A stretch of 28,724 nucleotides of DNA from a virus. Below are positions 18,496-28,724 of the stretch, piece after piece (within the stretch, counting starts at the first letter, position 1; every line of letters starts with the position of its first letter). Position numbers and translations under genes: made by a program. The notes under the pieces are model-generated. The model searched no databases, was not told the DNA's origin, and worked only from the letters and a program-made list of their open reading frames with translations. The DNA lies in the IMG/VR virus record IMGVR_UViG_3300018875_000064, positions 1 through 28,724 of that record, one strand, 5' to 3'.

Positions 18496-19056
18496 CTACA
18501 GCTGGAAGCGGTCTAAGGCGTCGTCTAGGGTGTCCTGCTTGATCCCTAAGTACCTTAACGTGATGTTTTGATCACTGTGATTAAACAGGTCCATTAGTAA
18601 CGCTATATCCTTTTCTCGTTGATAGAAATGATACCCAAACGTTTTGCGAAGTGAATGCGTTCCAATCTCGGGAATTGATAGCTCGTTCGCAGCACCTTTC
18701 AGAATCTTATAGGCCATGCTTGTGTCAATCGGTTCGTTGGCATGTCCTGTCTTATGCTTCCGGCTGCGTCCTGTGAACAAGTATTCTGTATCGGGTTTTC
18801 CGCGAATGTAGTGATCCAGGGCTTCGCGCAAAGAAGGATTAATTTTGATCTTTTTCTGTTTGCCCGTCTTCTTCTCTACGATGTTGATGTAAGGTCCTCG
18901 TACATCTCCAACTTGCAAAGGCAATATATCCGAGATGCGGAGGCCTGTATTGATCCCTATCATCACGAACACATAATCGCGTTCGTTCTTCTGGTATAGA
19001 TAATTCTTTAAACGCTGCAGCTGCTTCGTATCACGGATCGGTTGTACAAATTTCAT
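18496..19056 (-). CDS. Tyrosine recombinase, catalytic domain only
   Basis: This 186-aa protein has the full tyrosine recombinase catalytic set: Arg40 in NTGLRISD, Lys66 near KKTGKQKK, His134 and Arg137 in THSLRKT, His160 in FNHSD and the nucleophile Tyr169 in LRYLGI. Only a short helical lead precedes Arg40, so the core-binding domain that holds DNA in full-size integrases is missing. Similar small recombinases occur beside terminase genes in phages of Bacillota, away from the integration locus. Since a serine integrase is present at the other end, this enzyme is probably not the main integrase. It may resolve dimers or cut at a site near the packaging region. GGGAGG precedes the ATG. Confidence 0.92.
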   Translation of the reverse strand: MKFVQPIRDTKQLQRLKNYLYQKNERDYVFVMIGINTGLRISDILPLQVGDVRGPYINIVEKKTGKQKKIKINPSLREALDHYIRGKPDTEYLFTGRSRKHKTGHANEPIDTSMAYKILKGAANELSIPEIGTHSLRKTFGYHFYQREKDIALLMDLFNHSDQNITLRYLGIKQDTLDDALDRFQL

Positions 19057-19075: not shown

Positions 19076-19106
19076 GAAAAAGAAATACCGCCCCCGAAGG
19101 AGCGGC
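19076..19106 (-). terminator. Intrinsic terminator with TTCG loop before recombinase gene
   Basis: GCCGCTCC, loop TTCG, GGGGCGGT and ATTTCTTTTTC on the minus strand form a stem of eight pairs with two G-U pairs, closed by the stable TTCG loop. It ends the structured non-coding region between arpU and the tyrosine recombinase gene. Confidence 0.85.
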
Positions 19107-19362
19107 TATATAGGAGAAATGGTTATGAAACCCGTTGTCATTAGGCCTTGATAGGAATCGAACCTATCCAATCCATGAGGCCATGAAGAATCCGTATTTC
19201 TATCCCGCCCGGATGGAGCGGTTCGGGGCATCGAACCCCACCTCACACCGAACCCTTGACGATGAACGTCTAAGGATGAATCGCTTCATCCCACAGCGCG
19301 GCCGAGTTCCTACCGCGATAACGGGCAGTAGGCACACCGGAGAGGCGAATTCCTCTCTATGT
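19076..19362 (-). ncRNA. Candidate structured late leader RNA
   Basis: This region has no gene with a ribosome binding site, yet between the candidate late promoter and the TTCG-loop terminator it is dense in stems on the minus strand. A perfect hairpin GGATGAA-GCGA-TTCATCC with a GNRA loop lies at 19274-19291, and GACG-TTCAT-CGTC at 19258-19270. Two stems with TTCGAT loops lie at 19224-19240 and 19150-19168. The TTCGAT stems look like tRNA T-arms, 73 bases apart, but no complete tRNA can be folded. The transcript would be about 290 nt. It may be a free RNA or a leader whose terminator must be overcome for late genes; both are inference. Confidence 0.4.
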
Positions 19363-19370
19363 GCCTACTG
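19326..19370. repeat. 45-bp near-perfect inverted repeat
   Basis: CAGTAGGCACA pairs perfectly with TGTGCCTACTG, enclosing GAGAGG-AATTCG-CCTCTC with two or three unpaired bases between the arms. It is the largest hairpin in the window and overlaps the candidate late promoter start. As DNA it could be a protein or recombination site, and as RNA a 5' stem. Confidence 0.85.
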
Positions 19371-19433
19371 TATAACTGATCAACCGCCACTTTTGCGCCA
19401 AGTCACCGTCATAGTACCGTCATTTTACCGCCA
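19369..19433 (-). promoter_or_regulatory. Candidate ArpU-activated late promoter with 11-bp iterons
   Basis: On the minus strand five heptamers lie with exactly four bases between them, starting five bases behind the arpU stop: TGGCGGT, TGACGGT, TGACGGT, TGGCGCA and TGGCGGT (plus-strand positions 19427, 19416, 19405, 19394 and 19383 as left ends). Eight bases later is TATACA (19374-19369), a fair -10. No -35 matches at the right distance because the repeats occupy it. That suits a promoter that depends on an activator. ArpU/RinA-type late regulators are known to act on sites before the packaging genes. Confidence 0.65.
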
Positions 19434-19438
19434 CATTT

Positions 19439-19822
19439 TCATATGATTCCGCATAGCTTCAGATGTTCAGCAATGGTATCCACTCCTGTGGCGATTCGCC
19501 GGTCTATCGTTCGTTCACTTCTTTGCTCGGACCAAAATAGGTTAACCGTTCTTGCATACTTCTGTCCTTTCAAGTATCGATGCTCGAAAATTCGCTTTAC
19601 TTCATCATCTAAGATAAGGGCGAATGCTGTATTGATTTCCTCTACAATCTTTCCCCAGCTGGCATATACCTGTTGCTGCTTTTCCGTCAACTCTGATTTT
19701 TGCCCGAGTGCGTTTACCGTCACGCGCATTTTGGGATACCTTTTCAGTAAAGACTTAACGGCTTGGCGTTCGGCATCGGTAATACTCGGGAATAATTCCA
19801 TTTGCTCTACCGACTCCCCCAT
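19439..19822 (-). CDS. arpU: ArpU-family late transcription activator
   Basis: This 127-aa protein is of the ArpU/RinA/LtrC superfamily of activators that switch on packaging and lysis genes in phages of Gram-positive bacteria. The C-terminal half carries a sigma-factor-like helix-turn-helix: RIFEHRYLKGQKYARTVNLFW then SERTIDRRIATGVDTIAEHL, like ArpU. The N-terminus is a helical MELFPSITDAERQAVKSLLKRYPK with a central helical linker. AAAGGAG precedes the ATG with a seven-base gap. The gene ends five bases before a series of 11-bp repeats that are likely its binding site, so it would control the terminase and structural genes downstream. Confidence 0.9.
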   Translation of the reverse strand: MGESVEQMELFPSITDAERQAVKSLLKRYPKMRVTVNALGQKSELTEKQQQVYASWGKIVEEINTAFALILDDEVKRIFEHRYLKGQKYARTVNLFWSEQRSERTIDRRIATGVDTIAEHLKLCGII

Positions 19823-27266: not shown

Positions 27267-28724
27267 ATGGTTGTACTTGCATACATAAGAGTTAGTACAG
27301 ATGAACAAGTCGAAAAGGGAAACTCTTTAACTGAACAGAAGGAAAGGATTGAGGCATACTGTAAGGCAATGGGTTGGGATGATCCTATTTTTTTCATTGA
27401 AGATGGTTATAGTGCAAAATCAATGAACAGACCCGAGTTAACATCTATGTTGGAAGTGGTCAAGGAAAACAAGGGTGGAAGAGTTATCACAACTAAACTG
27501 GATCGATTATCCCGCAAATTATTCGATATTCTAAGCTTGAATAACTTTTTTGCAAAATATAAATTTCATTATGTATCAGCAACTGAGGGGTTTGATACAT
27601 CAACACCTGCCGGCATGCTTGTTTTACAAATGCTTGGTATGGTTGCTGAATTCGAAAGGGAGCGTAACTCTGAACGTGTAAGGGAGAATATGTATTCAAT
27701 AGCAAAAAATAAGCCAGGAAAGATTATTACTCGCCCCTGCTTTGGTTATGATATTGTCGATGGAAAATTGATTATAAATCTTGATGAAGCCTTGCCCATT
27801 AGACGAGCAGCCATGGACCTCCTAGCTGGCACTCCCAGCAGAAGTATTATTGGTGAATGGAATGCGCAAGGCATTCTTACAAAGGAAGGAAATGAATGGC
27901 AGGACAAGACTTTTAGGGAACTTTTCCAGAGGGAAACGCTTGTTGGAGATTTTGTTTATAATAAAACATCTAGACAAGGCGATAAGGTGATTAAGAACGA
28001 TCCTTCTTTGTGGGTCGTGGAAAAAAATACCCATGATGCAATCCTTGACAGAGAAACTTTCTCAAAATTACAAGAGTTATTCCGAGGCCGCAAAAGTGTG
28101 GGGAAACATATGAGCAACGATACTTATTTGCTGTCCGGGCTTGTTTACTGCGGACATTGCGCATCGAAAATGAACGGGAAAAAGAACATAAGTTACTCAA
28201 AGAAATTTGATCGGCAAAACATCCACTATCAATACTTATGCGATGGTTATCTAAAAAAAAGCAAGTGTTTTCATCATTACGTTAAACGTGATGAGATCGA
28301 AGAATTAGTAATTAACCGAATAAAAGAAGTATCCGAGGCAGCGCCAGGAACACTAAAATTGGTCATCGCTAAACCACAAGTACAGAAAATCGACAAAGAG
28401 AGCATTGAAAGCAAACTGGCCAAATTAGACAAGAAAATGCAGAAACAAATCGATGCATACAATGACGATTTGATTACTGCAGAAGATTTAAAAGCAGCTA
28501 CTCAAAGAGTGACTAAAGAAAGGGAAACGCTGAAAAAACTACTTGAAAGTTCCCAGGAAGAACAAGTTTCAAAACAAAAAGAAGAATTGAAAAGGAAGAC
28601 AAGGAGTGCCATAAAAGACATTTTGACAGGGGATCGGATCACCGCTAAACAATCTATTCGGCAGTTGATTGATAGAATCGAAATAAAAGACAGCAGCCAA
28701 GTGTCGATAGTTTGGCGCGCTTAA
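27267..28724 (+). CDS. int: Large serine recombinase (integrase)
   Basis: This 485-aa protein is a large serine integrase. The catalytic N-terminal domain has YIRVSTDEQ with the nucleophile Ser10 and Arg8, then the LDRLSRKLFD motif (Arg80, Arg83) and GMVAEFERERNSERVREN linker helix at about 124-141. A recombinase domain follows (150-270), then a zinc ribbon with C295-x2-C298 and C325...C334, and a charged coiled coil at about 385-455 (with ITAEDLKAATQRVTKERET). All parts of the family are in the right order. It integrates the phage at attP/attB. The gene ends exactly at the last base of the window, so the attachment site is expected just beyond or on the other end of the prophage. GGGAG precedes the ATG. 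Confidence 0.95.
   Translation: MVVLAYIRVSTDEQVEKGNSLTEQKERIEAYCKAMGWDDPIFFIEDGYSAKSMNRPELTSMLEVVKENKGGRVITTKLDRLSRKLFDILSLNNFFAKYKFHYVSATEGFDTSTPAGMLVLQMLGMVAEFERERNSERVRENMYSIAKNKPGKIITRPCFGYDIVDGKLIINLDEALPIRRAAMDLLAGTPSRSIIGEWNAQGILTKEGNEWQDKTFRELFQRETLVGDFVYNKTSRQGDKVIKNDPSLWVVEKNTHDAILDRETFSKLQELFRGRKSVGKHMSNDTYLLSGLVYCGHCASKMNGKKNISYSKKFDRQNIHYQYLCDGYLKKSKCFHHYVKRDEIEELVINRIKEVSEAAPGTLKLVIAKPQVQKIDKESIESKLAKLDKKMQKQIDAYNDDLITAEDLKAATQRVTKERETLKKLLESSQEEQVSKQKEELKRKTRSAIKDILTGDRITAKQSIRQLIDRIEIKDSSQVSIVWRA

Follow-up and report, generated by a model that had tools for sequence, protein, structure and literature searches.

An EAR-type antiterminator RNA in the late leader of a Paenibacillus-type phage and a putative promoter-encoded strand that pairs with it

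The late operon of a Paenibacillus-type phage is headed by a leader RNA whose core, judging from its sequence, is almost certainly an EAR (epsC) element, and by analogy with the eps operon this RNA very probably acts as an antiterminator of the late genes. In addition, the late promoter encodes the 5' arm of a hairpin (P0) that pairs with the 5' strand of the EAR, which is what is new here, and covariation and folding somewhat favour a promoter-of-origin lock built on this pairing. For the whole model, an EAR antiterminator of the late operon combined with a phage-specific lock, we estimate a probability of about 0.68.

The window, that is, the whole stretch of DNA that was analysed, covers positions 1-28,724 of the IMG/VR record IMGVR_UViG_3300018875_000064, and the leader region studied covers positions 19076-19370 (295 nt). 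The features, all on the minus (late) strand, are as follows, with their basis in brackets:

19439..19822, minus: gene for an ArpU-like late transcription activator, 127 aa (PHROG 21810, PHROG 248)
19383..19433, minus: five direct repeats, likely activator sites (sequence and TG conservation)
19367..19372, minus: predicted late promoter -10 element TACAGT, shared with the P0 5' arm (TAnAnT in 49/50 phage loci)
19360, minus: predicted transcription start, A (spacing and pyrimidine-A context)
19326..19370, minus: P0 hairpin, 45 bases (arm-swap test, folds with and without the arm)
19225..19339, minus: EAR (epsC) antiterminator RNA, by family match (RF01735, 91 bits against a gathering score of 42)
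19190..19214, minus: hairpin P6 (ATCCG...CGGAT) with a conserved loop (compensatory changes)
19144..19182, minus: tRNA-minihelix-like element (compensatory changes in both helices)
19077..19106, minus: leader intrinsic terminator, TTCG loop and U tract (sequence scan)
18496..19056, minus: tyrosine recombinase, first late gene (PF00589, E 1e-24)
16649-16629, 10635-10615, 7192-7171 and 6588-6570, minus: late-strand terminator-like sites (pattern scan)

The ArpU-like protein matches PHROG 21810 with an E value of 2e-31 and PHROG 248 ('transcriptional activator') with one of 1e-4. Behind the leader the late genes follow in the order tyrosine recombinase, TerS, HNH, TerL, portal, protease, capsid, sheath, tape measure and baseplate, which confirms that the terminator precedes the recombinase, terminase and structural genes, as the preliminary description had it. 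A large serine recombinase, likely the integrase, is encoded at 27267-28724 besides the tyrosine recombinase of the late operon. The hairpins, T-arm-like stems and TTCG-closed terminator described earlier are all present on the minus strand, in a leader that indeed codes for nothing recognisable: the sole ORF of at least 60 aa across 19076-19370 is a 103-aa TTG ORF on the opposite strand. The 295-nt region has a folding energy of -121.5 kcal/mol, and shuffled sequences have one of -99.2 +/- 5.3 (z -4.25, 0/200).

The Rfam match to epsC/EAR spans 19339-19225 and the full model (1-117; E 1.6e-14), and no other family reaches its gathering score in the leader. The GNRA hairpin GGATGAA-GCGA-TTCATCC (19291-19274) and the small hairpin GACG..CGTC (19270-19258) are internal EAR helices, and the T-arm-like stem at 19239-19225 is the last EAR hairpin; of the pseudoknot strands, the 5' GGU is present and its partner in the P1 loop would be GCC here, not ACC. 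The preliminary description knew of no element with this layout, a claim that falls with the identification of the core, whose relatives antiterminate exopolysaccharide operons. The EAR antiterminates several intrinsic terminators of the B. subtilis eps operon as well as heterologous terminators (PMC7858274), and the motif also appears in PMC2864571. The phage element is like the EAR of Bacillales exopolysaccharide operons in sequence and structure, in heading a long operon with terminators and in that a dedicated protein was not found, but it lies in a late operon behind an ArpU-like activator, its promoter arm pairs with the EAR 5' strand (an arm absent from the host EARs examined), and the window leader has P6 and the minihelix in addition. 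A search for PF02357 (NusG paralogue) found no match in 13 phage records, the window phage among them, and antitermination of the LoaP type was rejected for lack of a phage-encoded NusG-like protein in these records. Readings of the leader as a tRNA or tmRNA, which ARAGORN and Rfam do not call, and as a T-box, which has no Rfam support, were also rejected.

Viral contigs and genomes that encode an ArpU homologue were gathered and then searched with the EAR family; loose DNA patterns gave mostly noise, and EARs were filtered by profile. Among the 36 viral records that carry an ArpU homologue, 24 have an Rfam-detectable EAR (23 above the cut-off), and the other 12 comprise seven with an EAR-like variant, four with a different RNA and one (L153) with nothing. 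On inspection, the seven variant records (L125/L150, L145-L149 and L165) keep the same 5' part and have altered P2/P3. The variant that follows arpU in L125, L130, L145-L149 and L165, below Rfam detection, shares P1 and ACTCG. An ArpU match lies upstream of the EAR in nearly all of the roughly 50 non-redundant phage EAR loci, at a distance of up to 560 nt, or up to 2.5 kb with inserted sequence; in most phage records the EAR lies about 80-150 bp past the arpU stop, and in most loci a recombinase, HNH, TerS or TerL gene lies downstream. EARs also occur in 130 of 199 host-family genomes and 62 of 399 host-class genomes, many more than those of phage type, and the non-phage EARs examined have neither the arm nor an ArpU gene. 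In a tree of EARs the phage and host labels are mostly separate (6 changes, shuffled mean 37), and the direction of transfer is unreadable because the alignment has only 112 nt. A tblastn search of an annotated phage collection gave zero matches to the window ArpU or to two of its relatives, literature searches for EARs in phages found no report, and one on ArpU and the late operon was empty. It is most improbable that the EAR is an inactive relic of a host eps operon: scores are low for some phage EARs (47.5 bits in L126, 33.8 bits in the record of L167), but that of the window scores high, and both the synteny across divergent phages and the covariation argue for function.

In the window the EAR stands 5' of a long operon with a leader terminator and at least four late-strand terminator-like sites, which are pattern matches, one of them (10635-10615) just past the capsid gene. 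The hairpin of the leader terminator, GCCGCTCCTTCGGGGGCGGT-ATTTCTTTTT, lies at 19106-19087. Terminator-like sites on both strands of the window number 31, against 16.6 +/- 4.0 in shuffles. Of 50 phage EAR loci, 36 have a terminator candidate in the 420 nt that follow, by a scan that also finds candidates in one fifth of shuffles (31/150), and by the same scan about a quarter of the phages have none between the EAR and the first gene. Two relatives were scanned as well: L260 shows a strong terminator in its leader and several terminator-like sites on the late strand, and in L091 the scan finds little internal termination beyond the leader terminator.

P6 and the minihelix are present in about a dozen leaders. 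The minihelix-like element at 19144-19182 joins an acceptor-like GGCCT/AGGCC stem to a canonical T-arm, of which the T-arm-like stem at 19168-19150 is part. Compensating base changes among relatives, proposed earlier as a check, were found in P6 (two pairs among 9 phages) and in both minihelix helices: across the alignment of P6 and minihelix 96.7% of cells pair, with 6 compensatory pairs against 2.9 in shuffles and a covariation score of 0.35 against 0.20, a signal that is destroyed by sliding the partners one to three columns. RNase P accepts such minihelices as minimal substrates, so cleavage of the leader may occur at this point, and 19144-19182 is a possible RNase P/Z site. The strong terminator at the end of the leader and the tRNA-like minihelix would also suit a late RNA that ends at 19106-19087 and acts free of the late genes, such as a decoy or sRNA, with the virion genes transcribed from another promoter. 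This option, raised in the preliminary description, is the weaker one and improbable: where they are known, EARs act in cis, the position before the late genes is conserved, and from 19076 to the terminase genes there are no promoter-like sites above shuffled expectation. The other option offered there, that of a leader RNA which works in cis as an antiterminator and is made from an ArpU-dependent promoter, is backed by the EAR match, the conserved synteny and the repeats.

These repeats follow the consensus TGNCGGT with an exact 11-bp period (starts at 19433, 19422, 19411, 19400 and 19389 on the minus strand), the fourth being degenerate (TGGCGCA). The promoter search pattern required TAnAnT, six bases and then A, so the hexamer, present in 49 of 50 phage loci (the remaining contig is too short), and the A at +1 were imposed by it. 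Outside that pattern, TG pairs at -40/-39 and -29/-28, 11 bp apart, are kept across 49 phage loci, -1 is a pyrimidine in 49 of 49 (C in 46, T in 3) and -5 is G in 44 of 49. This conserved spacing and pyrimidine-A context would place the window start at A19360, the seventh base past the -10 TACAGT, and the conserved upstream pattern is best read as a late promoter with its predicted start inside P0. The ArpU-like protein, if acting at all, would be a promoter activator, and nothing points to an antiterminator role for it.

The 5' arm of P0 coincides with the late promoter (the TACAGT -10 plus the bases to -1), with the predicted start inside it, and the EAR 5' strand serves as the 3' arm, so that P0 excludes EAR helix P1. 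The 45-base hairpin seen earlier is therefore present at 19370-19326, but the late transcript probably contains only part of it, given that the predicted start at 19360 falls inside its 5' arm; P0 is predicted to form only in read-through RNA from upstream. Bases -17 to +2 are the complement of the EAR's first ~20 nt, and arm/EAR duplex energies range from -10 to -32 in phages and from -4 to -19 in hosts. Swapping arms between loci costs 5.4 kcal/mol (native mean -20.6, swapped -15.2 kcal/mol, sd 0.55; 0/10000 permutations as low as the native mean). Relatedness among loci may inflate this test, which gives 0/10000 inside the main group, 46/10000 inside the window-like group, 0/10000 on 13 divergent representatives (>8 differences) and, on these 13, 2/10000 for the discriminator part -6..+2 without the -10. 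Arm and EAR thus appear to coevolve, as in L262, with AGTT/AACT against AATC/GATC in others; pairing is weak in one group (L287, L156, L158-L160, L212).

The window RNA from the predicted start folds into the canonical Rfam EAR structure, and adding the upstream sequence makes P0 form and rearranges the EAR. In read-through RNA the shared strand has 10.1 pairs with the arm across 47 loci, and the expected pairs of P1 drop from 1.8 to 0.2. Even from the late start, ViennaRNA does not predict P1 in most phage loci (mean 1.8 expected pairs, hosts 4.0), and since it also ignores the EAR pseudoknot, folding alone is weak support; the whole 285-nt leader folds to another minimum, which makes global minimum folds indecisive. 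No hairpin of the leader segment is stronger than P0, and nearly all phage EARs conserve it, which would fit a start upstream of the arm, with P0 in every late transcript as a P0/P1 switch worked by a trans factor or as a 5' stabiliser, the EAR still antiterminating. This is unlikely: no alternative -10 is conserved upstream, the fixed-distance activator repeats occupy the site, and by the folds the EAR would be blocked in all transcripts.

In the preferred model, the ArpU-like activator would bind the tandem 11-bp repeats and transcription would start at 19360, giving an RNA that lacks the P0 5' arm, so that the EAR could fold. By analogy with the eps-operon EAR, the folded element would make RNA polymerase terminator-resistant, and the polymerase would pass both the leader terminator and those inside the virion operon. 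RNA begun further upstream, at early or spurious promoters, would contain the arm, and in it P0 would form first and capture the EAR 5' strand; the EAR could then not fold and transcription would halt at the leader terminator. As the hairpin would exist only in read-through RNA, resistance would be granted only to polymerases from the phage's own late promoter. That promoter bases -10 to -1 encode the 5' hairpin half in this sense, read-through RNA losing its EAR (or terminating) and own polymerases being spared, we hold at slightly better than even odds.

A conserved RNA of ~102 nt (AUAGGUCGUGUGAAA...GGUUCAGAUUCCUC...AGCGACU), absent from Rfam, occupies the EAR slot in L169-L172 and five genome loci, with sequences that are partly identical:

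L170:3498-3598, L172:2268-2371, L169:1132-1233, L171:5556-5656, also L392-L396: second RNA (position behind ArpU)

It is a candidate second class of antiterminator. In five of these phages (L170, L394, L395, L396 and L172) the -10 and start are embedded in a hairpin (-24 to -30 kcal/mol) with T6-7 after it in four of them and ATTTT in L172, and this hairpin would be an intrinsic terminator that only read-through RNA can form. These phages are an independent precedent for a promoter-embedded arm. It is very improbable that the inverted repeat acts instead as a DNA operator for a repressor or activator, the RNA pairing being incidental: one arm is the promoter and the repeats adjoin it, but the arm spacing varies (predicted start to EAR, 16-33 nt among phage loci), the 3' arm is an EAR strand retained in host EARs without P0, and the hairpin ends in a U tract in the second-RNA phages.

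External transcription of IS10 and IS50 is countered by a hairpin that exists only in read-through RNA, its 5' arm lying upstream of the start; that hairpin hides a ribosome site, whereas the phage hairpin would put an antiterminator out of action or itself act as a terminator. Processive antitermination by RNA only is known from few systems, put and EAR (PMC8955417). The put RNA of HK022, which serves the early genes of a lambdoid phage (PMC9378689), is likewise a phage cis RNA, and the EAR would be expected to make polymerase terminator-resistant as put does; kinship is not claimed. Leader RNAs also head long mobile-element operons in conAn of pLS20-type plasmids, which requires a protein as well (PMC8955417), and canT of Tn916, a separate element (PMC11658703). 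The EAR has so far been tied to polysaccharide operons, and if EARs lead the late genes in many Paenibacillus-type phages, antitermination by RNA would be a regular strategy of phages in Gram-positives; with the disabling strand encoded in the promoter, it would be clear how a cis RNA separates its own transcripts from read-through.

The interval between arpU and the late promoter is an apparent insertion spot for cargo. Extra sequence is found there in L122 (6308-7710, with two ORFs), L166, L168, L171, L244 and L245. One non-phage locus (L357) carries two EARs, at 2117 and 2766, ~650 nt apart. An insert resembling tRNA-Leu, called by neither ARAGORN nor Rfam, is present in L127, and a genuine tRNA gene (68.9 bits) lies within the late leader at L145:3629-3701.
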